Origin: Anniella stebbinsi
Taxonomy: Eukaryota; Chordata; Lepidosauria; Squamata; Anniellidae
Length of the DNA stretch: 64,000 bases
Assembly (NCBI GenBank): GCA_029215795.1
Contig: JARDYH010000001.1
Location: 404,277,154-404,341,153, forward strand
Direction: 5' to 3'
The notes beneath the pieces were generated by a model. It did not search any database. It saw only the letters and a list, made by a program, of their open reading frames with translations, and was not told the origin of the DNA. This document shows, one piece after another, positions 24,008 to 59,759 of this stretch (its first letter is position 1; each line of letters begins with the position of its first letter). The translations under genes and the position numbers were made by a program.

Positions 24008-27000
24008 AATAACTTACATATTTATACTTGTGTGTATAGATTTCCATTCAAAGTCTAGCTTAGCATTTTATGCAAGAAACAAATGTGGGAAATGAACAAA
24101 GCCATTTAACATCGTGGTTGTGTTCCACGTTTAGGAATGGATTGATTACCGTTTAGCTTGGGAACCTTCAGAGTACGATGGCATAAACAAGTTGAGGATA
24201 CCAGCTAAGAAAGTCTGGCTCCCGGACATTGTGCTGTACAATAAGTAAGTCCATTTGCGCCCCTTCACCTTGTAAAATGGAGTACTATGAACGTAGGGAC
24301 TGACTTAGGGTCAAACCAGGAGTGAGGCATTCATATCCTTAGCTGTGAGGTGGAGGATTCCCATCTCTGTCCCCTGAAAAATAGCTGGAGCCAACAGGAG
24401 ATTTAAGCACCTAAGAAGAGCCATGCTGGATCAAACCAAGGATCTCTCTAGTCCAGCACTTCATTCGCACAGTGGCCAATTCCCTACCTCTGAGTTAAGC
24501 AAAGCTTGTGGAATTGTTGTGTATGTATATATGTATATGCCGTGTTTCTAATAAATATTAAAGGCAGCTTACAATCAAAATAAAACAATACAGAATGATT
24601 AAAATAATGATAACTACTTTGTCATTATTTCCCTCCTTTCCCAACTATCCTCCTTCTACAAATAACTCAGTCAATCAGGAATGTTGTCATAAAAATCATG
24701 ATGCCACAACACCATGTAAGGAATGAGATTTGGCTACATGACTGCATTGCAAAGCCAGTTCACAGCGAGGTCAAGAAAGCATCGCCCTCTCTCTGAATTG
24801 GCTTTCTGGTGTCATCAGATAGCCAGATCTGAATGACTACACAGTATCATCAGAAACCCAACTCAGAGTGAGCGTAGGAGGCATTGCCCTGACTCCAAAT
24901 AGGTATCAGAATGGGAGCTGCACTGCAAACATGTTCAGCCCTTTTTCCAACCCCACCTGAAAACTTACTGAAATATGGAGGCACATTTTATATAGGACAA
25001 AAATGTTCACAATAGGTACCCCAAATGTTTCAGCTTGGCTGTGCTTGACACTTCTCCTTCTGTTTCCTTAATTACATGTATTCCCACTTTCCCTCTGTGG
25101 CAATGTGCAAAGCAAAGCAAGCAACAGTGCAGCTAAGCCTACATTGGGACTACTCCCCCTCCCCACATCAAGGTTAACCCCAATATATGGGGGATCATGC
25201 TATTAGTGCTCAGTTTGGGCTGGCATGAACACTCGAGGCTTATGAGTTCTTTAACGGTCCCAAAAGGCCCCCAAACGTCAGAAGTAATCAGTTATATGTC
25301 AGGTCACAAAAGTAGGCTGACCACGAATATACTTTCAAACCCACAAAGTACTCTGTCTCTGCCATAGCTGTATTTTTCTCTTCTTGGTTTCTTTAGTGCC
25401 GACGGCACGTACGAGGTCTCAGTGTATACGAATGTGATTGTGAAGAACAACGGGAGCATTTTATGGCTGCCTCCGGCCATCTACAAGAGCGCCTGCAAGA
25501 TCGAAGTGAAACATTTCCCCTTTGACCAACAGAACTGCACCTTAAAGTTCCGCTCGTGGACATACGACCACTCCGAAATCGACATGGTTCTGAAAAACCA
25601 CTCGGCTGGCATGGATGACTTTAAGCCCAGTGGCGAATGGGACATTGTGGCTCTCCCTGGGCGGCGAACTGAGAACCCCTTCGACCCGAAATACGTGGAC
25701 GTAACGTATGACTTCATCATTAAGAGGAAGCCCCTCTTCTATACCATCAACCTCATCATCCCTTGTGTGCTCATCACGTCCTTGGCCATCCTGGTGTTCT
25801 ACCTGCCGTCGGACTGCGGGGAAAAGATGACGTTGTGCATTTCCGTCCTGCTTGCTTTGACTGTGTTCTTGCTGCTGATCTCAAAAATTGTCCCCCCAAC
25901 ATCCCTCGACGTCCCGCTGATTGGAAAGTACCTCATGTTCACCATGATCCTGGTGACCTTCTCGATCGTCACCAGCGTCTGTGTGCTGAACGTCCACCAC
26001 AGATCTCCCAGCACTCATGTCATGCCGCCCTGGGTGAAGGTGGTCTTCCTTCAGAGACTGCCCCGCTTCCTGTTCATGAGGCGCCCTGAGAACAACTCAG
26101 CCAGGCAAAGGCTGCACAACCAGAAGAGGAATAAGACCGGGACGACTTGCCCCGATTCGGCCAACCTCTACAAGGGTTCCACCTACTTTGTGAACACAGC
26201 CTCGGCCAAAAAGTATGACCTGAACCTGGCAGATAATTCCGATCACTGCGGCAGCCATCAAGACGTCCGGCTGCGGTCATCAGCGAAGTTTTCCCCCGAG
26301 GTCCAAGAAGCTATTGATGGCGTCACTTTCATAGCGGAGCACATGAGAGGCGAGGACAGCAGTGAGAGTGTAGGTTTGTCCCTGGAAATCTGAGGTGCTT
26401 CTTCTCTTGTGAAGAAGAGAAATACATTTCTGTTCTCACAGCCATTTCAAAGTCATGGTAATTCATTTGTGTAGTTCCAAGATCGCTGTCATCATTTTAT
26501 TTGTTTTATCTGTTGTGACATTTATATCCCACCATTTTTTCCGTCAAGGAACTAAAGGCACCGTACACGCCCCCCCTTCTCTCCATTTTATCCTCACAAT
26601 GATCCTGTGAGGTAGGACAGGCTGACAGTCCATGCCTGGCCCAAACTTGCTCAGTGGGGGGCAGGCATAAAGGCAAAGGGGGTTGGGCTAAAGGCAGAAG
26701 GGTACAAAAATAAATCAAATGAACAAAACAGCCCAGCCTATTGTAGCGTGAAGGTCTTCCTGCCTGTCACTGCGCCTTGGGGGGAGGCATTTTGATCTTT
26801 TAGAATGGGGGGGGGAACTGTACAAGAGTGGGAAACCGCCCAAGAATTGACTGTTAGGGGAAAGGGGTTTGGGAGCTGGACGGACACCCGAGGCAGGCTG
26901 TATGTGGCCCCTGGGCCTTAGATGTCCAACTCCTGCACTAAAAAAAAAATCTCACACTTGACTGCCATTCTATGCACATTGTTACATGGGAGCGAACTCC

Positions 27001-38616: not shown

Positions 38617-41600
38617 AACTCTCAAAGTTTTTTTTAAAATCGTAAGTTTTTTTTAATTTTATATGGGTATATATGGAGTGAGGTGGGGAGGAACTATGAA
38701 GGAAAGCTCTAGGTGGAAAAGAGATTTCAAATTCCTAGTAGCAAGGATGCTTCACCTTCTCTCTCTCTCTTATCCCCATCCTGCCCAATGGAAACCCCCA
38801 AAGCCACAGCCTGGATGATGCCAGGCATAAGGAAGAGCCACTAACTGGAAGAACGTTTCACTTTTGGGGCACTTCTGACACCCAGTGGCCATTTGCCTTC
38901 TTAGCAAATCACCAATGCTGGGGATTCAAGGAAATCCATGGACACTGTAGAGAGATCTTACAGATCTTGGAGATCTCCTCACTGGGATGCCCTCCCATTT
39001 CTTTCACCCCCCCACAGCCATCTCAAGGTCAAACAGGTTTTTGGAAGAATAGAAAAATCTGCAAAACCTATTTGGCCAAAGAGGGATGAGCATATGCAGC
39101 TGTTTAAAAGAAGTGAGGCTTGTACAGTCTGGCAAGTGTATCAGATGCATTTATTTCTCTGGGCCCAGAATAGGGTGGCCCAAGAGATTGGCTGGTAAGA
39201 ATAACAAACAGAGGTGCAAGGCTTATTATTGGGTCAAGAACAGTGGAGCAGCAGCAGCAGGGGCTGTGTGTCTGTGCTTTGAAAGATACTGCCCTGAGTT
39301 TGCATTTTCTTTATTTTTAAGGCTCCTTGGTGGATCTTATAATTTTTTTAGCCTATACTTTTAATACATGTTATTTACATTGCCTTTTGCTATTTTTATT
39401 GTAAGCTCCCCTGAGAAGTTATTTGAGGGACAGGGCATATGTTTAAACAAACTAGCTAACCTGTGTGGTGCTGGAGATCCCGCTTGGCAAAAGCTTGCTG
39501 AAATATCATTCTCTGCAACGCATAAGGCGCGTGTTCCAGCTGACGTTTCTGCATTAAGACAGGAAAAGATTATGTTTCCAAAATGTTAAATGTCGTCGCA
39601 AAGGTAAGACTACATCCCAACACAGCCCAGCAATTTTCCAGCCCCACACCAGGTACAAGTTGGCAACTGAAGAAAGGATGGATTCAGTACATGCTAGAAA
39701 TGTGTGCATAGTGAGAAAAGGTCTACTTATTAGGCAGTTTGCATGATACTTTAAACACACTAGTTTTTCTCTTAATTTTTCTTTGATTAGATCTGGAATG
39801 ATTACAAACTCAAGTGGAATCCCGACAAGTATGGGGGCATTCAGTGTATCCGAGTACCATCACGAAAGATCTGGAAACCAGACATTGTTCTATATAACAA
39901 GTAAGATAACAATATCTGATCTAGTCATGATACAATTTCCATTACCTGCAAGTACATGTCCTCTTTAAAAGGTGCAGTAACCAGCTTTCCTCAGCCTGGT
40001 GTTTTGGACTGCAACTCCCAGCATTCCTGACCACTGGCCATGCTGGCTGGGGCTGGTGGGAATCGTAGTCCAACACATCTGGAAGGCACCAGGTTGGGGA
40101 TGGCTGATCTACTCTACATAGCTGTGCCTCTCCAAGGTTTCAGGCAGATGTTGTCCACCCTCGTTACCAGAGACCTGAGTCTGTCAATATGCAAACCACA
40201 TGATCCAACCCAGAGGCACAGTAGAAAGGAATAATACCACATGCCACCGATTATACTGCTTCTTCAGGAAATGGAATGCTTCCTTGGTCTTTATTGTGAC
40301 ATGCATGGTTTTGATTCATTTTCAAAGTATTTGATCAAATTCCCCACCCCACCCCCAGCACATTTTACCCTAAGGAGGGGGCATGGCTCAGTGACAGAGC
40401 ACCTGCTTTGCATGCAGAGGCCCCAGGTTCGATCCCTGGCACCTTCAGGTGAATCTGGAAAACCTCCTGCCTAAAACCCTGGAGAGCCATCGCAGCCAGT
40501 TAGTGTGGACCATACTGGGCTAGATGGATCAAGGGCCTGTCTCAGCATTAGGTAACTCCCTGTGTAGCCTGCAATATTATGCATGTTTAGGCAGAAACAA
40601 GTTGCATTTTGTCTAACAGGGCTTATTCCATAGTAATTATGTTTAAGATTGCAGCGTTAATGTGGCTTAAACATTATAGTCAACAGTAAATTGCAAATCT
40701 TTGCTTGGAAATTATATTTAGGGGAATACATGCAAATAAGATCTGATGACCCAATAACATACAATTCCCTTATTTTCTTTTTAGTTCTTTAAATGTAGAG
40801 GCACTGTTATGTTAACATACTAATTTTTGCAATATTTGAAAAATACAATGTATGTGTGTGTGTGTTTATGCACATGCCATATTTGCACACACACATACAA
40901 GCTGCTCAACCTGCCCTACTGTGAGGCCATAAGGATTATTTGGCCAAAGGCTCAGCATGACGAGGTCATTGTTGTTTTTACAGTGCTGTCGGGAACTTCC
41001 AGGTGGATGACAAAACCAAGGCATTGCTGAATTATACTGGAAATGTCACTTGGATGCCACCGGCTATATTTAAGAGTGCATGTAAAATAGACGTGACCTA
41101 CTTCCCATTTGATTACCAAAACTGCACCATGAAATTTGGCTCCTGGTCCTACGACAAATCAAAGATCGACTTAATCCCCATTGGCTCTACTATGAACCTC
41201 AAGGACTACTGGGAAAGTGGAGAGTGGGACATCATTAAGGCACCAGGCTATAGGCACGACGAGAGGTACGGTTGCTGCGAGGACATTTTCACAGACATCA
41301 CCTATTCCCTTTACATCAGGCGGCTGCCCTTGTTTTACACCATCAACATGATCATCCCATGCCTCCTGATCTCTTTCTTAACCATCTTGGTCTTTTACCT
41401 CCCTTCAGACTGTGGGGAGAAAGTAACGCTGTGCATCTCGGTCCTTCTATCTTTAACCGTTTTCCTCCTGGTGATAACGGAGACCATTCCTTCCACCTCC
41501 CTGGTGATCCCGCTGATTGGGGAATACCTCCTCTTCACCATGATTTTTGTCACTCTCTCTATAGTCATCACCGTCTTTGTGCTCAATGTGCACTACAGAA

Positions 41601-44600
41601 CCCCCAGGACCCACACCATGCCTGAGTGGGTGAAAACCATCTTCCTAAACTTTCTCCCAAGGATCATGTTTATGACCAGGCCGGCCAGCGAAGAAAACAA
41701 CGATGACGATGACGATAGCCAGAAGCCAAAGTCGCCTTACCGTGCAGAGCTCTCCCACTTAAACTGCCTCAGTGCTCCAGAAACCAGATGCCGCAAAGAC
41801 GGCTTCCTGTGTCAAGATGCAATGTGCAGCTATTGCGAGCATCAACATATAAAATACATCAAAGTGAACAGCAACCTGACACAGAGCTCAAGTTCCGAAT
41901 CCGTAGATGCTCTGCTTTCATCTTCAGTTATAACGCCGGAAATGAGGGATGCTATCGAGTGTGTTAAATACATTGCAGAAAACATGAGATTGCAGGATAA
42001 AGCCAAGGAGGTATGAGGAAGTTTTGTTAATTTAAGTTAATTTAAGTATATGCAGCATAGTTGACGTTGTGAGGCCTGGTGCTGAACGAGGTAGAAAACC
42101 TGTGCCTGGAGTGTAGGATCAGACCATTTGTCCCCCTGGCCCAATATTGCCTGTTTTGACTGCCAAGGGCTGTCCCAGCACTTGCCATCTGAGCCTTTGA
42201 GGAGATGCAACAGAGTTGTTCAGGGGGACATAGTGCTGCCAATGCCCTCCCCCGTTTCCTCATCCCCTTCCTGCTGGCCATGTCCTCCATTTCCTCCAAT
42301 GCCATTTTCCTTGCCTGCCTCCCCAAAGTTTCCCCAGGGGGCAGCAGTAATTTGAATGGCAGCAAGGCCAGCACCCAGCTCCGCACCTGCCACCTATCAT
42401 CTTAGCAATGCCGAACATGTCAACGTTGAGCATTGCATTCTGGATAATCTAAGATGGTGGTCCTTCTTAGGGAGTTCCACAGATATTGTGTCAGTGTTGT
42501 GAAGGCTCTGTCCTGAAGAGCTTCCTGCCAGACTTCAGAGGGTAAAAGTATACAGAGCAAGCCTCCAAGGAAGATCTGAACATGCAAACTACCCAGAGAA
42601 TTTTTTAAAAAATATATTTTTTAAAAAAACTAGGTACAAATGGGAGAAGCGGCCCTTTAAGATGCTGGAAAGTCATTTACAACCTGAGCATGACACAAAA
42701 AACAGCCATCAAAATCTTTCCAGAACCAACATTTATTGGGGTGTAGTATGTAATTGTATGCAGCATGACCAACTGAGAATGTTCTGTTTGTTTTCTTTGT
42801 GCACAATTCAAGAACAGAGTTGGGTGTTCAAATCAGATTGCAGATTCAATACAAATAATTAATAATGAAGTACTCCAAGACATCACAAGACTTCCAGGAC
42901 ATTTAGGACATGTGTATAAGGTCTTTGTTTTTGAATAGTTATTCTGGACTAACAGACTAAAGGTCAATTAACAGAGCAATCTTACACGTGTCCGCAGAAG
43001 TGAGTCCTACTATGTTCACTGGTGAAACATACTCTTAGAAGGTGTTCTGTGGGACAGAACACAACTGTATTCTGGAATCTTCATTCCTTTAAGATGCAAG
43101 CTGGGTTCCTAGCAGTACATAGAAACTCTACCCATGAAAATATTCTCCTACATTTTAAGATAACATTTCAAATATTTTTCCATTAAACCTCTGAATACAT
43201 ATTCAATATATCTGTAAGTTCCTTCTTCCAGTCCAGGCTCCTGTGCACCCATGGAGCTTTCTGAAAGGATCTTCCCAAGTATTTTCAGTGTTGGGGTAAG
43301 CTTTGTACACAGTGAGGGCGCATGTGGATAGAGATCCCTGCCTACAGTTTTTGCTTATGGGCTGCAGACCTCATGCCCTCTTATTGTATTTAGCCATAGG
43401 CCATCACAATAAAACACTGACCTTGCCTAAGAATGGTAGGACCTAATTCTGTCAGGATTAGTATATTGTGACTTTCCCCTTCAAATACCAGGAAAGGGTG
43501 TTTCTGGAATTTCAATGTTAATATATACTACTAGAGGATTTTATTTTTTTCTTGGAGGGTGTTAAGTTTCAAATAACCTTTCACAGAAGGGTTGGTCAAG
43601 AGATATGGGGATACACAGAATCAGTTTTGAGTCCTCATATGTATCTGGTGCACATGTATGCACACTGATGTTCAATGAGCATATTCATCAAGAAAATATC
43701 CCCCCAAAGGGGGTCTCACAACTTCTGCATACTCACAGAAACACTTGAATCATCCCAGTAGTACCAAACATTAGAGCAGAAGATAGACACCTCCTTTCCC
43801 TTCTACTATTCAAAACAACAGCGACCTGCAGTTTTGAACTTAGCATCTGAGAATACTGCCACTGCTTTGAAATCACATAATGAGAAAAGAGCCACCATAA
43901 CAAGAAACCTTACAGAAGGCAAGCTCAAAAAGCTTAACAGGAATATACAAGATAAAAGTCATAGATTTCTTTGGATTTCAGCATTCATGAACAGTTTAAA
44001 TAGTTTTGTTTTAATGGGATGCTGTTTTGAGTGCCATTAGGCAGTTTGCAGTTTAAATCTGAAATAATTAGTGGAGAGGTTAGTGGAAGAGCAGTTTAAC
44101 TATATCCTTGCACTACAACCTACTAATCATGTCTGTTAACCTAATAATATTGATAAAGTAAACAACATACAGATTGTACCGGCTTTGATGCCATTGCACA
44201 GGGTTTCAAAAAAATAGGGGAGAATGAGAAGGGTGTATATGAATGAGGGAAGGTGCATATTTGCACTTCCATGTATGAACCCTAAACAAAAGCACAAGGA
44301 AATTAAGTACATGGGGATAGTGAGGAATGACCATTCACACCCAATTTCCTAATCAGCCTGATGGAAAAGAAGAAACAGTGATCACACACTATTATATCCA
44401 TCCATCCACAGAGATCCATCACAAGGTTGATTTTGTGCTACGTGCAAGGTAAATTGCTGAAACCATTTCTTGTGTCTACAGAAGGCTTATAAAATAGATA
44501 TATCTAAATTTATATAATTTGTCTGCTTTTTTCCAGGCTCAAGATGATTGGAAATATGTTGCCATGGTAATTGACCGCATCTTCCTGTGGATATTCATGC

Positions 44601-49032: not shown

Positions 49033-49194
49033 TTATTTATTAACACTTCCATTATGGACTGGTACTATTATGCTTGCCCATTTATGAATTACAGGAATAA
49101 ATAGTGCCAGTGATCCAATAATTGAAACCAGAAGGAATGTCCACAAGAACACACGATCAAGCACCTGAGCTATAAATTTCCAGTCCTCAACAAC
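49033..49194 (-). CDS. CHRNA5: CHRNA5 exon 6 (M4) and stop
   Basis: After CTCTCTTCAG, encodes [20 protein letters not shown], the M4 helix and the 17-residue tail ending HNGSVNK, with TAA at 49033-49035. The long post-M4 tail is characteristic of alpha5. Confidence 0.97.
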
Positions 49195-51535
49195 CTGAAG
49201 AGAGAAGGAAAAATAAGTTAGTTCCCTTTTTTAAATACACTTCAGCACAATACCTATAGTTATTATTAACAAGACACAAGCTGCACTGCCTCTATTAGTT
49301 CAGAAAAAAAAAGCAAATTCTGGAGGAAAGGCTTTCAGCTGTCACTGCTCATACATTTCAAAGAGTTAGAAATAGCTTCCTTTATTGTGCGCTTTTTTAA
49401 AATGCTGCATAGTCAAGACATGACCATACACTAACAAAGAATATCATCAGGGCTGTATGTGCTTTTTAAAGATGTTAAAATTCCCAGCCTGCGACTGGGG
49501 AGGAGAAGGGAAGCACAAACTGGCTTTGGTCATCACCCATGGGACATAGGGCCACTGGGAGGCTGCACCTCCTGCTTCTCAGGAATAACTTCAAGCCAAG
49601 GGGGAGGCCCCATCTGGCCCATCGCTTGGTTAAAGGGACAAGAGCCATCAACTGTTATTCAAGGAAGAACACTGGCAAAGAGAGATCAGCCTGACCCGAA
49701 GTGCATTTAAATGCCTGTTTATAGCTCGCCGCTTCATTTTGGCCTTGCAAAACTGATCTTTGGGAGGCCATAACTGTCTGAAAAGCAGGATGCAGTAAAT
49801 GCAAAAAGAACAAGAAGCCCTCAAAACACCCTGAAATACAATACTGCACCCAGAACAATGCATTTTAGTATAAAATATAAAATCTTTACAGAAACCAAAA
49901 CAGTCCAATGGCCGTCTGAGTATACCCACCGAGAATGGAATACTGACAAGGGGACCCTCTGGAATCCAGAGGGGGTGGGGGAAGAAGAGAGTTGCTGAAA
50001 TCCTGAACAGGGTGGATGCCACACTGCAACATTTTGTTATAGGTTCCACTTACAGTACATCTGTGTCTTAAATGAAAAAATAATAATCCAAGAGCATCAC
50101 AAATGAAATATGGAAAACCTGTTACTGGTAACATTAAACCAATGGGTATAAATAGTGTACACTTTAACTTATTTACACAGAAGCAAGTCAACTGCCATTT
50201 CTGAAGCCTATGTAAATAACAGTCAGATTCTTTCCATTTTGGCTTGCTTACAAAGAGAACTGCTACAAAATGATTCTCAAGTAAAGTTGTATGACTATTT
50301 CTAGCAGAGATTGTGACATCTGACAATGTTGCTTGAAACAAACAAATCAGGATTTTACTTAATACTCTACTGCACACTTTGTGTGCTGCCATTCCAGACT
50401 TGCAGCTTCAACCATGGAATACAACTTGACTAATACACACACCTCACGTACTTGGTTCTCCTTGACAATGTGCCTCGTAATGTATCGGATAGAATTTAAA
50501 GCTGCTTCCAAGGTATTCCTAGAGGGCTCAGATCCATTGGGGCTGTTGGCCTCCTCCTTCTGAGTAAAGTACCTATCGACATGGCTTCTCATGCAGAGCA
50601 GTTTGGGAAGTTTGCGAAGAAATATCTTGCGGACCCAAGGTGCCATCGCATTGTGTGTCGATGAAGATCGATGTTGAACATTAATAGCAAAGACAGTGAT
50701 GACAATAGACAGTGTCACAAAAATCATTGTGAACACCAAATACTCGCCAATAAGCGGTATAACTTTAGATGACGAAGGGATGATTTCTTCGATGACAAGA
50801 AGAAAGACAGTTAAAGACACCAGCACTGACGTGCACAGAGAGATTTTCTCACCTTCATAGGATGGAAGATAGAAAACAAGGACAGTCAAGAATGACAAAC
50901 CTATACAGGGAATAATGAGGAACAGGGTATAAAAGAGAGGCAGGCGTCTAATTATAAATGAGTATGTAATAAACGGATACCAGCAACTTCCATCCATTCT
51001 GTTCCCTCTGTTCCCAGTTGCAGTTACTATTTCCCATTCTCCGTTATCAAAGAAGTCCCTCTTATCAACTTCTTCATCTACAAGAATTATATCAACTTGT
51101 GAACCATCGTAAGTCCAGGAGCCGAATTTCATGGTGCAGTTTTGGAGATCAAATGGAAAATATGTGACATCTATAGTACAGGAACTTTTGTAATTTGCTG
51201 GAGGAGTCCAAGCAATAGTACCATCATGTTTCACTACTGTTTTTGTAGAAGTTCCTTCAAAACGGCCATCTGCACTGAAATAATATTCAGTAAAGAGTTT
51301 TATTATGTAACATGTTGCTTTCCATAAATAGCTTACCTCAAAAAGCTTACATTTTATTCAGTTATTTTCACCTTATATTTTATTCAATTGTTTTCAGATG
51401 TTTACTGTCACATTCTGAGCTTTTATGCTAATTTTATACATGTTTAACTTTCTCAAAGTTGTTTTGAAAGTGAATAATATTGCTTAGACATTTTACAATA
51501 GTATAAACATTCCAAACAATGAAAAACTGAGCAAT

Positions 51536-51573
<38 letters not shown>

Positions 51574-54500
51574 TTATAACCCGCCTCTCCCTCCGGATCG
51601 AGGCGGGGAATAACAACAATATAAAACACAAAAATCACAACAGTTAAAAATGTTAAAAAACAAGAAAAAATACATCATTAAAAACATCTTAAAATTCATC
51701 TGGATAGGCCTGCCGGAAGAGAGCAGTCTTCATGACTCTCTTAAACTCATGAAGACTGCTAATTTGTCTAATCTCCTCTGGCAGACCACTCCATAGTCTG
51801 GGAGAGATGGAAGAGAAGGTCCTCTGGGTAACACTCGTCAGCCTAGTTCTGGCTGACTTGAGTAAGTTCTTCCCAGAGGACCTAAGTGTGCGGGGCGGAT
51901 TGTACGGGAGAAGGCGATCCCGTAGGTAACCTGGACCCAAACCATGTAGGGCTTTAAAGGTAATAACCAACACTTTATACTTCACCCGGAAACTGATTGG
52001 CAGCCAATGAAGCGATTTTAAAACTGGTGTAATGTGATCACCCCTAGGTGTACCGGTGACCAACCTGGCTGCCATATTTTGAACAAGTTGAAGTTTCCGG
52101 ACTAGGCACAAAGGTAGCCCTATGTACAGCGCCTTGCAGAAGTCAAGCCTCGAAGTTACCAGCATGTGCACTACCGTCTTTAGGTCTTCCAACTCTAGGA
52201 AGGGGCGCAGCTGGCGTATCAGCCGAAGCTGATAGTAGGCACTCCTGGCCATCATATCAATCTGAGCTGCCATTTGGAACAACGGATCCAGGAGTACCCC
52301 CAAGCTGCGAACACAATCTTTCAGGGGGGGGTGTAACCCCATCCAGAACTGGTTGACACACCTCCAGACCCAGGTTGGGGCCTTTGACAGCAAGCACCTC
52401 CGTCTTGTCTGGATTCAGCTTCAGTTTGTTTTTCCTCATCCAGCCCATTACCGCCTCCAAGCATTCATTCAGAGGAGACACACTATCCTTAGCTGACGAT
52501 GTTGTCGAAGGCATAGAGAAATATATTTGGGTGTCATCAGCATATTGATAGCACCCCGCCCCATGCCTCTGGATGATCTCTCCCAGCGGTTTCATGTAAA
52601 TGTTAAAAAGCATTGGGGAAAGGATGGCACCTTGTGGTACACCACATAGCAACTCCTTTTTTGAAGAGCAGCTATCTCCAAGCATCACCATCTGGAACCT
52701 GCCCGAGAGATAGGATCGGAACCACTGAAGCACAGTGCCCCCGATTCCCAATTCCCCCAGGCGCTCCAGAAGGATACCATGGTCAATGGTATCGAAAGCC
52801 GCTGAGAGGTCCAGGAGTACCAGCAGGGACACACTCCCCCTGTCAATACTAAGGCATAGATCATCCACTAAGGCGACCAAAGCGGTCTGAACTCCGTATC
52901 CTGGCCTGAAGCCGGTTTGAAATGGGTCTAGAAAATCAGTGTCATCCAAGACTGCCTGGAGTTGGAAGGCAACTGTCCTCTCGATCACCTTGCCCAAAAA
53001 TGGAAGATTTGATACTGGCCTGTAGTTATTAAAGTCCAGGGGATCCAGGGAGGGCTTTTTTAGAAGCGGCCTTACCACCGCCTCTTTTAAACATGATGGA
53101 AAACTCCCCTCCCTGAGAGATGCATTAATGATATGTTGTAAATGTGATCTAACTGCATCTCCTCCCTGGACGACCAGCCAAGAAGGGCAGGGATCGAGAG
53201 GGCAAGTCATCCTCCTCACACATCCAAGTACCTTGTCCACATCCTCGGTACTCACCAACTGAAACTGATCAAGTGTAATCCTACTCACGGAGTCGCTGGA
53301 CACGCCACTGTCAGCCTCTGCTATAACAATGGCATCTAAGTCGGCTCTTATCCGAGAGATTTTATCTGAGAAATGATAGTTAAAGGCATCACAGCGAACT
53401 ACCGAAGGCTCTAAAATCGGATTCAGGGGAGAAGGTGCCTGGGTTAGACCCCTCACCACCCTGAACAGTTCCGCTGGACGTGAATTCGCAGACACAATGC
53501 GCACAGAGAAGAAAGCTTTCTTCGCTGCATGTATTGCCACCCCATAGGAACGAAGATGTTCTCTATGTTGTGTCTTGTCGGATATAAGTCGCGTTTTCCG
53601 CCATCAGCGCTCCAGTCGTCGTCCTTTCCGCTTCAACTCCCTTAGCATATTCTTCATATTGAACAGATAAATTCCTTAGCAGTTGGACCTAATAAACAAG
53701 TAAAAGCATGCTCCTGGTGGTTCCACATAGACCTATGGCCCAATTAAGAGTCCACCAAGAGAAGAGCCTTTAGTGTGGAGGCTCCCTTCCTATGGAATTT
53801 TCTGCCTCAGGAGGTCAGGCAGGCACCAACGTTGTGCTGCTTCCAACACCTCCTGAAAGCAGTTCTGCTTCAGGAAGCGTTTCTTAAATGACTAGCTGTG
53901 GTCTTTATTGGTATTTTGTTTTAAAATGCTTACTTGTCATATAAAACAATATCTGGAATCCATATTGAATCTGAAGGGACACGAATAGATGTTATTCCAG
54001 CGTAGTCTTTAGGGTCCCATTTCAATTTTACATCAACCCATTCCTACATAAAAAGAACAGTTTTTCTTTTTAAAAAGAAAGTTCATTCTAATTTATGAAC
54101 AACTAACTTGAAACAGCTAGCACAGAAGACAATGTCTAAGATGTCCAATACTATATTAAAGTCACCAACTCCCATAATGGCTTTTACTTAGCAAACAACA
54201 ATACAAACATATTCCTGTGATACAGTCAGAATAGGACACATTTTTTGTTTGCTGTTTCAGATGGAATTTTAACAGATGTCATAAAACTAAAGAGAAACTG
54301 TACAAGAAATTCTTCTACCATTTCAAATTATATAACTAGAATATGTTCTTCTAATTTAAAACAAAAACGATAATAAAAATAATTTGATCCAGGAATCGTT
54401 TTTTGATAACATTTTTATCTCTTTGTGGGATGTAAGTAAGTATCTTTTAATACAAACTGAACATACAATTCAGATACATCAATGTAGTTTGCCTTTTAAT

Positions 54501-57500
54501 TCATAACCAGGCTGAAATCTCTACATTGTATTTCCTTTACAGTGCAAAAATATACATGTCTGCTGAGAAGTAAGAACCATTGAGTTCAATGGGACTTACT
54601 CACAAGTAAATGTGTATAAGATTTCAGCTTTAGCAGAGAAAGATGGGCACTCTCTTAACAGAAAGTTGGTATTGAATAATCCACTTCAGTGATGCAACTG
54701 AGTGGAATGATGCAACATCTTCCCGCAACATTATAAAGTGTTACAGTCAATTTTTTTTACAATACATTGCACTCACCTGCTTCAACCAAACATTTGTTGT
54801 CATCAATTGATTTTTCTCATCCTATTGAAAAACAAGTGTTATATGTATGACATATAATTGTACAAGCCTCTTCCATTTCTGGACCGTGGTTCATAGCAAT
54901 TGTCATATATTCTACAGCTATCATCTGGGACAACTCCAAGTTTGAATGGGATCTTGGCTGTGGTGGGTCTCCCACTACATTAGTGCTCTCCAATGAGCCT
55001 CAGCAAGCTTACCATGAGCACAGCAATGGTAGGGGCTGACATCTTATTTTCTCAAAATGCCCTGGTCAGGGCGTGTTCCAGGGCATTGTAGCAAATCTAT
55101 GTAATGTCTCTAGGCCTCCCTGTGTTGACAGTGCCAGAAAAGGGAGTCCCTCAGCAGGAATCAGTAGTGGGTGATGCTGTTACTCTGGGCCCCTGGCAGG
55201 TGCCTAAGAATGTCAGGTATTGATGCTGGTGCTGGCTGTCTAAATATCCTATCTTGACCAAAGAACAAAGGTCACAGACCATTGACTTTCACACAATGCC
55301 CTCATACTCCCTCCAAGGTGCATGGAGCTCTGGCATCCTTTGCACGTGAAAGAAAAAGTTAGCAGTGTTCTTCAGACCATATGCCTCTGACAATCAACTA
55401 TTTTGTGCAAAAATGTCTATTTAAAAATTAGTTAAGCAAGTGAATTTTCTAACATACCACATCCACCAACTGGGTAATTGCAAGGCCAAATTTCACTTTT
55501 ATTGTATCATTCAAATGTTCCACTGGGCGAACCCATCTTTCATAGTCTTCAAATAAGTATTTAAACAAACGGTCTTCACTTTTAGCAAGAAAAGAAGGTT
55601 CAGATGTACCTGCACAAAAGGCGAAGAGGACAATGTAGTTATATGTTTTTTAAAAAAACATTCTACACTTTCTTATAACTGGCACTTTGAAGATGAAAGC
55701 AAAGACGAAAGCAAGTGGCTGAGAAGGTAGGTATGCTTATCAGGCTCATACATTTGCAAAAGGTGAAAGAGATTTGGCAGAAATGTATGCGTAGTGGAAA
55801 GTGACTATTCTCCTACAGAAATTGTTGCTTCCTCTTTCCTGCTAACTATCTAGGGAATAGCAGGAATGAGGAAGGAACAATTTCTGCTCTCTTCTGAAGA
55901 TTTTGCTCTCAGTTCAATAACATCAAAGTGAAATAGAATCATTTGACCCAAGAATGTACCATGGAGGGGTGGCCAAGCACCCTGGCAACTACCTCTGCCA
56001 CCAGCAGCAGAGAAGTGCACCTGGCACTTGGCTGCCTGCCACTAGATTCAGCTGTGTTTTCTCTCCCAATCCAACAAATTAGCCTGGCTTGGATGGAAGT
56101 GTGCAAATGAAAGTGATAAGATAATGGGAAAGAGGCAAGTTAAGTGACAGTACACACCCAGGAGGCCAAAAAAAAAAAAAAAAAAGATTGCCCAGCCACC
56201 TGAGTTGAGAGAGAATGCGGGGCGGGGTGGGTGGAGAGAGAAAGTTTCTATGAAGCATATTTCAAAGTCTAAGGCTCCTCCTTACCACTTAGTCTTACCA
56301 CTTCACACAGCATTGAATGAAGGGTCTATGGCTCCACTAAGGGCACTCAAATTGGAGCGAAAGTAGGAGCCACACATACTTCATCTGATTGGCAGGTAAA
56401 CATGTAGGCCAACCCCACGGAAAGATATTGTGTTTGAGGTGCTATCGCATGATATGAAAATTCCATGATGTTAGATATGTGAAGCAACAAGAGAGAGGGC
56501 CTTCTCTGTGGTAGCTCCCCAATTGTGGAACGATCTCCCCGACGAGGCCCGCCTGGCGCCAACATTGTTATCTTTTCGGCGCCAGGTCAAGACTTTCCTC
56601 TTCTCTCAGGCATTTGGCAATATCTGAGGAGCCTGGGTTTGTTTTGTTTTGTAGTTTTTTGCAGTGTTGAAGTGGTTTTTAAATGTACAGATTGTGTGTA
56701 TGTTGTATGTTTTTGCTGTTTTAATTTTTGTATATTGTTTTTAATTGTTTTTAATCCTATGTAAACCGCCCAGAGAGCTTCGGCTATGGGGCGGTATACA
56801 AATGTAATAAATAAATAAATAAAAAGTCTCACTCATATATATAAGCCCCTGCTTAATGTGATGGCATGCATATATGAACTAGTGTCATAGCCTGTCTGCC
56901 TCTATTATTCTAGATAAAACCTACAGTTTGTGCTTCTGCATACCTTCCCCTTAAAGCAATGAAATCTCTATCTCCCCAGTAAAAGGTTTTTGATGTATAC
57001 TTGATTTTTAAAATCCCAAGAAATATAGAAAACTAAATTCAACAGTATATTCTATGCATCCCCACCAAAAATGTAACAGTAACACGTGCTTTCCCTGTTG
57101 CCAACTGGGCCATCTACTAAAGTTCTCACAATGTGAATTCTAAACCCTATTATATATTGTGCAAATTCACCCTGATCAGCTGCATCCTGGATGAAGCTGG
57201 TGAGAGCTGGATTCCTCGGTCACACCAATTACAGTATCCAGAGGGTTCCTATCCTATATCTAATACAATAACCACTTGAATTGCCCTCAGCAGCATGAAA
57301 GCTGCATGGTTCTTACTTTTCTTTACTGTATGCAGATTTTGAGCAAGCAGTGTGAAACTGACCAGGTGCTACTTGAGAAAGTTTGGAACAGCAGCAGATA
57401 CAGGTGGCAGCTGACGCAACAAAATTCTGTTACGTTTGGCTCACATGCAAAATTTATCATGGAAGTGTTCAGACAGCTAGAAAACTTTAAAGATGAAAAT

Positions 57501-59759
57501 AGAATTTTGATGTAGACATCAGCATCCTATCAGCAGAAACTACATCTGTTGTGTGGATTTTGCAAGCTTAGCAATGAACTAGCGGGAAATTCAAGTAGTA
57601 CTTGGCCATTTGAGGAATGTAATTGGCTTATATACCAACTGCCTGTTACAGTATTCCTTCCCCTCTGTGCATTGGTGTCCTCAGATTAACAGTTTAACAG
57701 AGCAGAGAAATATTTGCCTCTGAATTATTTGGAAAGTGCTTGACATTTTGTAGACATTAATGTAGGTAAGTGAAATTACTCAAGTTGTGGTTTCGCAAGC
57801 TGTCTGGCAAAGTCACTGGCAATAATAATAATGCTCCAGACAGCCCTCATATAGGAGAGTCCCCATGTGGATTTCACCAGCCATCTGTTAAGAGGAGCAG
57901 AAAGCATGGCTAAGTAAACAGACTGATCCTATACATGGTGACTCAGAAGTCAGCTCCACTAAATTCATAGGGGTTAGTTCCAGGTGCAGACATAAGATTA
58001 CTGCCTAAAAATGGTAAAATGGAAAATTATTAAACTGAAGCAACTGGGTTTTAATCACCGTGCCCAGAAGTCAGAATCATAACAGTCAATGATGGGAGAA
58101 GAGGTACAAAGAGAGCAAGGAAAATATGAAGAATTGCATATAGATCAGAGAAAGACATAGGTGAAAAACAAATAACATGAAAGAAGGGAGAAAAGAAGAA
58201 GTAACGGTAAGAGGTAAAGATAGATGGTTCTAACATGTATTAATTTCATATTCAATTAGTTTGTTTATTCTGTGGATTTATGGATATGAATACAAATGGA
58301 CAATTCATGTAAATAAATATGCAAATTAGGCACAGTCTTCAGGTTCCTAGCAAGTTGCAGATGCAGCCCCTTATGTTGCAGTGTTCTATGTGCAGGAACA
58401 TTTTCATTCTAAATAAAAAGGATCTAAAGACTTTCTGCTAATCTCTGCTTCTGCACTATATCCCCAGGGTTGCAATACTGGTGTTCAAAACCCTCAGTTG
58501 TCCTTCAGATCTGATCTAAGCTATCTTAAATCTCCCCAAGGAAGAAAACATCCCTACAGGATTCCCACTCCTCAATGGAAAAACAGTGTGTTTTAAACTC
58601 TGAAACCCAGCCTCATCCCTTCATAAGTCAGAAACAGTCTTCTGCTCCCTCCGTATCTGCGCAGCCCCACTGCACCAGAGTTAGCCTAGAAAAGATGAAG
58701 CCAGGGATGAACTCTTTGCAAGACAGGGGCGGCGGACAGCATGGTACATGTACAGATGGAGGAAACTCAATAGGAGATGTAATGCCCCCACCCCATCAAA
58801 TAAACATCCTATTTTGTCCATCCTTGGCAAACTGATCCATACTTATGTGTGTATAATGTGGAAATCCTACCAAACCCTGCATTTGAAATGCAGTCACATT
58901 TTTCCTTTCCCTCTCACCAACTAGTAACCAACGTACAGCACAATTCTATGGGTGTTGAACCAGAAGTCAGTCCCACTGTGTTTCATGGCACTGACTCCCA
59001 GGTAACCATGCAGTAGAACTACAGTGTTAACGGCAGAGGCTGTTATCCGATGAACGCTCATACCTAATAAAAAGGTATCACGCGACTGTAATTATTTCTC
59101 TTCTTCTTCTAGTTGCGGACCAACGGAGATGGCTAATTTTGGGAGTGGGGGCGTCACAACTGCAAGGCATATTAACACTGCAATCCTACAACCAGTTACC
59201 TGGGAGTAAAGCCCCACTGAACTCAACGTGACTTCTGAGTAGAGAGCTATAGGGCGGCTCTGCACTCTTAGCCCGGCCCAGGGGGGCTTCCTGGCTTCTT
59301 TCCTCCCCTCCTTCCCAAGGGGCTAACACAAGGTGGGAGCTGTCCGAAGTCCTGGCCTCCATCCCCCAAAACGAGTTCAGCACTTGGATAGCTCGCAACT
59401 GACTTAAAAGTCCCACTGGTTTCAATGGGTCCAACCCAAACAAGGGCTAAACTTCGGCACATCCCTACACACACGATACTTTCTCGTCATAAGTAAATAA
59501 ATAGCAGCCCCTACACGGCTTTAGCCAGAGAGCCCAAGGGCAGCAGGGATTAGAATGCGTTCACACGAGCACCCGGCCCACACCCACACCCCTCTGGGGC
59601 TCCCCCGTTACCCGCATAAGGAGCGCAGCCCGCGCCGCTCTCGGGGCCGGTTCCCCTCAGGAGGGGCGGCAGGAGGAGGAGCAGGAGCCGAAGGCCGGTG
59701 GGCGCGAGCGGCGGCTGCCCTCCCGGGGAAAGGGCGGCTCGACGCCGGGGCTCCGTCAT
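49033..59759 (-). CDS. CHRNA5: Neuronal nicotinic acetylcholine receptor subunit alpha-5, six exons
   Basis: On the minus strand, exons in coding order are 59759-59612, 55609-55458, 54821-54777, 54043-53934, 51274-50443 and 49194-49033, giving 482 residues (human 468, the extra being at the N-terminus). It is an accessory subunit that joins alpha3-beta4 or alpha4-beta2 pentamers and alters calcium permeability and desensitisation. Visible parts are a leader with a poly-Leu core (about 22-34), Cys-loop C184-C198, loop B W205, M1 about 263-289, M2 293-318, M3 322-351, and the conserved cytoplasmic block [15 protein letters not shown]4 lies about 444-465, followed by a long tail ending in HNGSVNK. 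Oddities: only one loop C cysteine remains (S248-C249), and residue 412, which aligns to human D398, is Asn. An in-frame TGA at 59775-59777 fixes the start. It is convergent with CHRNA3. Confidence 0.97.
50443..51274 (-). CDS. CHRNA5: CHRNA5 exon 5 (Cys-loop, loop C, M1-M3)
   Basis: 832 nt from [14 protein letters not shown] to [11 protein letters not shown], followed by the donor GTGTGT. It contains loop C ([14 protein letters not shown]), M1-M3 and the intracellular loop including [11 protein letters not shown]. It is open throughout and closes in frame with exon 6. Confidence 0.98.
51533..53680 (-). mobile_element. L2-clade LINE, 5'-truncated, in CHRNA5 intron 4
   Basis: Minus orientation. 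The 3' end has a CCCGCCTCGATCCGGAGGG-type block and an (AAT)n tail (51536-51575). It contains a long reverse transcriptase frame and C-terminal domain. No endonuclease domain remains. Same sense as the host gene. Confidence 0.85.
51689..53540 (-). pseudogene. L2 LINE reverse transcriptase, one frameshift
   Basis: A 427-codon frame (53540-52257) carries [34 protein letters not shown], the [14 protein letters not shown] motif and the catalytic YADD at codons 333-336 (about 52533-52544). A second frame (52393-51689) continues it with [16 protein letters not shown] and [10 protein letters not shown], the L2-type C-terminal domain. The two are shifted, most simply by a one-base change in the G8 run at 52324-52331. 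Otherwise unusually intact, so this is a fairly young copy. No endonuclease is seen upstream. Confidence 0.88.
53690..53930 (+). mobile_element. L2-type LINE 3' fragment abutting CHRNA5 exon 4
   Basis: Wording such as GGCTCCCTTCCTATGGAATT and CTCAGGAGGTCAGGCAGGCA matches the 3' region also seen at 56490-56620. It runs on + to within a few bases of the exon 4 donor (exon edge 53934). A different subfamily from the RT-bearing element beside it. Confidence 0.55.
53934..54043 (-). CDS. CHRNA5: CHRNA5 exon 4
   Basis: 110 nt encoding [20 protein letters not shown] through [12 protein letters not shown]. Loop A here has Tyr150; I recall Phe in human alpha5. The donor GTAAGC is followed almost at once by LINE-derived DNA. 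Confidence 0.97.
54777..54821 (-). CDS. CHRNA5: CHRNA5 exon 3 (45 nt)
   Basis: Encodes [15 protein letters not shown] between TTTCAATAG and GTGAGT. It is the standard 45-nt family exon. Confidence 0.97.
55458..55609 (-). CDS. CHRNA5: CHRNA5 exon 2
   Basis: 152 nt after TTTTGTGCAG. It encodes [20 protein letters not shown] through [20 protein letters not shown] and QLVDV. NDT is a sequon. The donor is GTATGT. Confidence 0.95.
56169..56187. repeat. Poly(A) tract
   Basis: About 18 consecutive A in CHRNA5 intron 1; no retroposed gene recognised in front of it. Confidence 0.8.
56480..56822 (+). mobile_element. L2-type LINE 3' end in CHRNA5 intron 1
   Basis: GTGGTAGCTCCCCAATTGTG, GAACGATCTCCCCGACGAGG and the terminal AACCGCCCAGAGAGCTTCGG with GGGGCGGTATACAAATG and (AAAT)n. 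Same end as the inverted copy at 13317. Confidence 0.78.
58930..59260. repeat. Two short palindromic interspersed repeats (AAGTCAGTCCCA family)
   Basis: AACCAGAAGTCAGTCCCACT with GACTCCCAGGTAACC (58960-59010) and GTTACCTGGGAGTAAAGCCC with GTGACTTCTGAGTAGAG (59195-59245) are copies of a family scattered here (also near 14640, 23740, 26990, 42990, 54560, 57950, 60430 and 63590). The consensus is a ~70-bp near-palindrome. It lies in CHRNA5 intron 1, just before the CpG island. Confidence 0.5.

Follow-up and report, generated by a model that had tools for sequence, protein, structure and literature searches.

Asparagine at the human D398N position of CHRNA5 in Anniella stebbinsi is probably an inherited squamate state

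The CHRNA5 variant D398N (rs16969968) is a leading candidate to explain how the human 15q25 locus influences smoking, and part of the case for it has been built on cross-species conservation: in the passages we draw on, the SNP is called conserved across species (PMC2556340) and the region highly conserved across vertebrates (PMC3178595). What, then, is to be made of a reptile whose CHRNA5 reads Asn at this position? Such an Asn was reported in an initial annotation of the window, the 64,000-nucleotide stretch of Anniella stebbinsi DNA analysed here, and would, as argued there, be a natural instance of the human variant if it were fixed. The answer depends on whether the gene and the position are correctly identified, on how far the Asn extends beyond this species, and on what its distribution says about the history and function of the site.

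Six exons with AG/GT edges join into an intact, open CHRNA5 of 482 residues on the minus strand of the window. They are given here with the codon in question and the basis of each assignment:

59612..59759, minus strand: CHRNA5 exon 1, coding part (signal peptide); the start codon is our choice
55458..55609, minus strand: CHRNA5 exon 2 (homologue match and splice edges)
54777..54821, minus strand: CHRNA5 exon 3 (homologue match and splice edges)
53934..54043, minus strand: CHRNA5 exon 4 (homologue match and splice edges)
50443..51274, minus strand: CHRNA5 exon 5, with the end of the extracellular domain, TM1-TM3, the cytoplasmic loop and the start of the amphipathic MA helix (Pfam and joined frame)
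50494..50496, minus strand: codon AAT, Asn412 of CHRNA5, orthologous to human Asp398, the rs16969968 / D398N site (codon reading and alignments)
49033..49194, minus strand: CHRNA5 exon 6, with TM4 and the stop codon TAA at 49033-49035 (homologue match and splice edges)

The human CHRNA5 used as query has 468 amino acids, with Asp at 398; in a tblastn search with it, the signal peptide of the window gene found no homologue match. Exon 5 carries the Pfam domains PF02931 (Neur_chan_LBD) and PF02932 (Neur_chan_memb), both above cut-off. Among the best 120 of 5103 database matches, rows named alpha-5 resemble the window protein at 91% (Varanus), 90% (Anolis), 89% (Pituophis) and 85% (a grouse), while the top match of those listed, Phrynosoma at 95%, is labelled 'hypothetical protein' followed by a cut-off receptor name. 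CHRNB4 and CHRNA3 lie on the plus strand and CHRNA5 on the minus strand, so the window holds a CHRNA5-CHRNA3-CHRNB4 cluster with CHRNA5 in opposite orientation; in the human cluster, too, CHRNA5 is on the opposite strand. The vicinal cysteine pair that marks alpha subunits in loop C is absent from the window protein, whose residues 248-249 read Ser-Cys and not Cys-Cys. This weighs little against the identity of the gene, since the pair is missing in most other rows (only 32 of the 110 non-squamate CHRNA5 rows have Cys at 248, Ser being the commonest residue there) and, according to a receptor survey, in some CHRNA5 orthologues (PMC6354393).

The position, too, is secure. BLASTP aligns the human sequence (residues 27-468) to the window protein with 362 of 442 identities and no gaps, placing N412 opposite D398, and in a MAFFT alignment with 120 database proteins the two residues share one column. 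Its flanks are near-invariant in the 110 non-squamate rows (A410 in 110, L411 and I414 in 109 each), so the register at 412 is not in doubt. Residue number and codon come out the same in the joined six-exon frame. Misalignment and paralogue confusion at 412 are ruled out by the gapless human alignment, the shared column and the classing of rows by best match, and the orthology of Asn412 with human D398, as first annotated, is confirmed.

How far does the Asn extend beyond Anniella? We examined 249 proteins, of which 182 best matched an alpha5 reference. The motif could be read in 172 of these, 10 from squamates and 162 from other groups, and reading the residue from an alignment instead gave the same result in all 172. 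Each database row is a 90% cluster that may stand for several sequences, the residue being read from the row only. Ten alpha5-matching rows were dropped: P0070, a Podarcis isoform terminating before the site; P0109 (Glu) and P0242 (Asp), divergent just past it, and P0245, divergent there; P0222, P0240 and P0247, which have no residue at the site; and P0104, P0153 and P0178, labelled beta3, with Ser, Asn and Asn at the site. None of the 10 database squamates is acidic (8 Asn, 1 Thr, 1 Lys), and with the window all 11 squamates covering the site lack the acid. Asn is found in the window, in Phrynosoma and Varanus, in the snakes Pituophis, Crotalus, Thamnophis and Pantherophis, and in rows P0144 and P0148, which are counted as squamates from their tree position inside the group; Anolis sagrei has Thr and the skink Lerista has Lys. 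Pantherophis, P0144 and P0148 were added from two further searches (best 120 of 153 and best 120 of 314 matches). Elsewhere, 159 of 162 CHRNA5 rows are acidic (127 Asp, 32 Glu), the exceptions being Lys in two entries of the turbot, Scophthalmus maximus, and Gly in P0146. The latter is a CHRNA5 fragment that in our judgement looks mammalian. Asp is also present in a tuatara row labelled 'acetylcholine receptor subunit alpha' and classed as alpha5 by best match.

The MAFFT column gives the same picture. Its 122 rows (the best 120 of the 5103 matches, the window and the human sequence) hold 87 Asp, 23 Glu, 6 Asn, 3 Lys, 1 Thr, 1 Ser and 1 gap, and all six Asn belong to squamates: the window, Phrynosoma, Varanus, Pituophis, Crotalus and Thamnophis. 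When the alpha6 row P0042, the beta3 row P0104 and the human row are left out of the comparison, as in all column counts against 110 other rows, the column is acidic in 0 of 8 squamates and 108 of 110 others. Asn is thus not unique to Anniella, and the idea of a natural reptile instance of the human variant has to be widened: the Asn is orthologous, but it belongs to a state common to all sampled squamates, and what these share is the loss of the acid, to Asn, Thr or Lys, rather than the fixation of Asn alone. The accompanying statement that Asp is strongly conserved across vertebrates holds for an acidic residue; Asp itself occupies only 127 of the 162 non-squamate rows, with Glu in 32 and neither in 3. 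No gecko CHRNA5 was seen by name among the matches listed in three protein searches (best 120 of 5103, of 153 and of 314), and geckos may sit inside a listed cluster; nor was a named dibamid, other early-branching or full-length lacertid row covering the site seen among those matches. To speak of all squamates is therefore to extrapolate beyond the sampled families.

A maximum-likelihood tree of 39 rows and 468 columns, with column 412 left out, joins all 11 squamate rows in a single clade with 100/100 support. On this tree, acid versus non-acid requires at least two changes, one in squamates and one in the turbot, and a single loss for squamates is the least number of changes in the sampled rows. 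Branches among squamates are mostly unresolved: the window falls inside the group without a firm neighbour, and P0144 joins Lerista at weak support (82/65). The tuatara is the sister group of squamates in the accepted species tree, and taxonomy lookups place Lerista in the order Squamata and Sphenodon in the order Sphenodontia, both in Lepidosauria. Our tree does not recover the tuatara in that place, so putting the loss on the squamate stem relies on the accepted species tree. The codons make Asn the economical ancestral residue, since a single base separates it from Asp, and also from Lys and Thr, neither of which is one base away from Asp. Most simply, then, the acid, which probably lies where the MA helix of alpha5 begins, would have been replaced on the squamate stem, once the tuatara lineage had branched off, by a one-base change from Asp to Asn, and Asn would later have given way to Thr in Anolis and to Lys in Lerista; Glu or Ala may also have served as intermediates to Lys or Thr. 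The acid could alternatively have been lost after geckos split off.

The neighbouring genes tell whether the loss affected the whole cluster. Three codons of the plus-strand genes bear on this:

26316..26318, plus strand: CHRNB4 codon GAT (Asp), equivalent of alpha5 398, acid kept (alignment)
26325..26327, plus strand: CHRNB4 codon ACT (Thr), taken as the mouse beta4 S435 position (beta4 and beta2 sequences)
41957..41959, plus strand: CHRNA3 codon GAG (Glu), equivalent of alpha5 398, acid kept (alignment)

Compared with solved structures, the gene at 40976 (plus strand) best matches an alpha-3 chain. The gene at 25389 (plus strand) matches beta chains; a long beta-2 chain tops the list overall (489 bits over 326 residues), and over about the first 240 residues beta-4 (484) exceeds the shorter beta-2 chains (452 and 449). 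The correspondence of the CHRNB4 Thr to mouse beta4 S435 is our assumption from beta4 and beta2 sequences. Since alpha3 keeps Glu and beta4 keeps Asp, the acid loss within the cluster is confined to alpha5. We consider it probable, taking these observations together, that the Asn in the window is an inherited squamate state that goes back to a loss of the acid on the squamate stem, restricted within the cluster to alpha5, and that receptors containing it would by analogy resemble those with human N398.

The strongest alternative is that constraint on the site was relaxed without functional consequence, the partners or the loop having changed so that the position drifts among Asn, Thr and Lys. 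We regard this as quite possible, if somewhat short of an even chance. It would account for three different residues among only 11 squamates, and the sister paralogue beta3 drifts in a like manner: the 38 rows so classed have 18 Asp, 8 Tyr, 3 Asn, 3 Glu, 2 Phe, 2 Ser and 1 Gly, one row ending before the site, which makes 21 acidic and 16 non-acidic. A 398-type position can thus lose its acid in other lineages. Those of the non-acidic beta3 rows (among them P0183, P0184, P0192 and P0202) that bear names are fish, and the seven beta3 rows that could be named as tetrapods all keep the acid. Relaxation has to contend, however, with an acid that 159 of the 162 CHRNA5 rows from outside squamates share, as do the alpha3 and beta4 of the window itself, and with the conservation of most neighbouring helix positions in squamates.

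A comparison of nine squamates with 110 other CHRNA5 rows over 446 columns puts the site in proportion. Squamate CHRNA5 is well conserved apart from a few columns: 264 columns are conserved in 95% or more of the other rows, and of these 17 vary in any of the nine squamates and one varies in all. In 35 columns, 90% or more of the non-squamate rows have an acid. Of these, 32 are acidic in every squamate and column 80 in all but one, which leaves 217 and 412 as the only columns where all squamates with a residue have lost it. At 217, nine of nine squamates have Val where 104 of 110 others have Glu. All nine have Glu or Asp at 219 (elsewhere mostly Phe, Gln, Tyr or Val) and Glu at 220 (elsewhere mostly His or Asp), so the charge at 217 appears to have moved locally. 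That a charge can move in this way fits relaxed constraint, as does the number of acids in the 27-column helix segment around 412 of ray-finned fish alpha5: in the tree set it is mostly four, as in many squamates, and so is not fixed. The fish reach their number via another position and, except for the turbot, keep the acid at the 398 site. Squamates have gained no acid in the segment, with three or four against five in 17 of the 18 other tetrapods of the tree set, which speaks against relaxed constraint. The residues 217, 219 and 220, all encoded in exon 5, amount to a squamate-specific charge shuffle in the extracellular domain.

The same comparison lends something to the proposal that selection on the squamate stem favoured losing the charge, for example as a way of adjusting how calcium enters at habenular or autonomic synapses: 412 is one of only two complete losses among the 35 acidic columns, and it belongs to a set of nine where each squamate carries a residue rare (<5%) elsewhere. 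The later replacements by Thr and Lys argue against Asn itself having been favoured, and we think such an adaptive change unlikely. Sequencing error, a rare allele or misalignment in the window could hardly be dismissed from one sequence alone, but is highly improbable, because Asn recurs in the same local context in the separately sequenced Phrynosoma, Varanus, Pituophis, Crotalus, Thamnophis and Pantherophis, and the reading frame is open through all CHRNA5 exons.

If the Asn is an inherited squamate state, what would it do to the receptor? According to the parts of the literature we draw on, human N398 in alpha4beta2alpha5 receptors expressed in oocytes lowers calcium permeability and increases desensitization with ACh potency unchanged (PMC7744819), and the Asp form gives a twofold greater maximal agonist response than the Asn form (PMC5152594). 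For alpha3beta4alpha5, whose subunits are those encoded in the window cluster, the differences between Asp and Asn are mixed, several studies finding none (PMC7744819, section 16). By analogy, squamate alpha4beta2alpha5 receptors most likely resemble those with human N398: set against an Asp version, they would be less permeable to calcium and desensitize more, while agonist potency would hardly change. We infer such behaviour with more confidence for alpha4beta2 than for alpha3beta4 partners, and the human effect need not carry over, since squamate alpha5 differs elsewhere too. In a predicted model of the Phrynosoma protein, a helix at 387-452 includes the site (394), although the model is poor (mean pLDDT 52.7). 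It is tempting to go further and suppose that a whole order lives with an alpha5 of the human 'risk' kind, the charge having been lost once on the squamate stem and the receptors having adjusted around the loss, perhaps in beta4 as well, where the position holding Thr in the window is taken to be the one facing alpha5 398 in a published model; this we offer tentatively, as a possibility that we would not ourselves bet on. We do not favour a connection with snake toxin resistance, reasoning that the residue is cytoplasmic.

How does the squamate state compare with known cases? The kind of change is familiar from people, where the same subunit, the same position and the same Asp-to-Asn substitution are involved. 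The human case, however, is a polymorphism, while the squamate one is a difference between species that runs across families, includes Thr and Lys, and is set among other partners and another background. In beta3 (CHRNB3), the sister paralogue of alpha5, several fish rows have lost the same MA-helix acid, some to Asn, but this is another gene and the replacement may also be Tyr, Phe or Ser. The turbot has lost the acid in CHRNA5 itself, but to Lys, in one fish species and as a separate event on the tree. The squamate-wide state appears undescribed in the open-access literature searched: a search for CHRNA5 with squamates, lizards and reptiles found no description of the residue at the 398 site. 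In the relevant part of a vertebrate nicotinic receptor survey, CHRNA5, CHRNA3 and CHRNB4 are reported as not found in lizard, so the lizard is missing from the CHRNA5 comparison there (PMC6354393).

A reptile group without the acid limits the argument from conservation, as the acid is strongly conserved yet not indispensable. What is a risk variant in people looks to be both ordinary and long established in a large group of reptiles, and if this is true, squamates would be a natural experiment on the effects of D398N over long evolutionary time. A comparison of squamate with mammalian alpha5 would then be a test of whether the effect of Asp versus Asn depends on background.

Some further features of the window gene deserve mention. 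Among the squamates aligned, loop C residues 248-249 are Ser-Cys in the window and three snakes, and Cys-Cys in Phrynosoma, Anolis, Varanus, Lerista and Podarcis. Residues 243-245 read NRM in the window and form the glycosylation sequon NRT in the other eight squamates. Residue 352 is Gln in the window; His stands there in 97.5% of other CHRNA5 rows and Gln in none. Finally, intron 4 contains a retrotransposon remnant at 51689-53603 on the minus strand, the orientation of the gene itself, with a reverse transcriptase domain (PF00078, E 1.5e-36) at 52257-53603.
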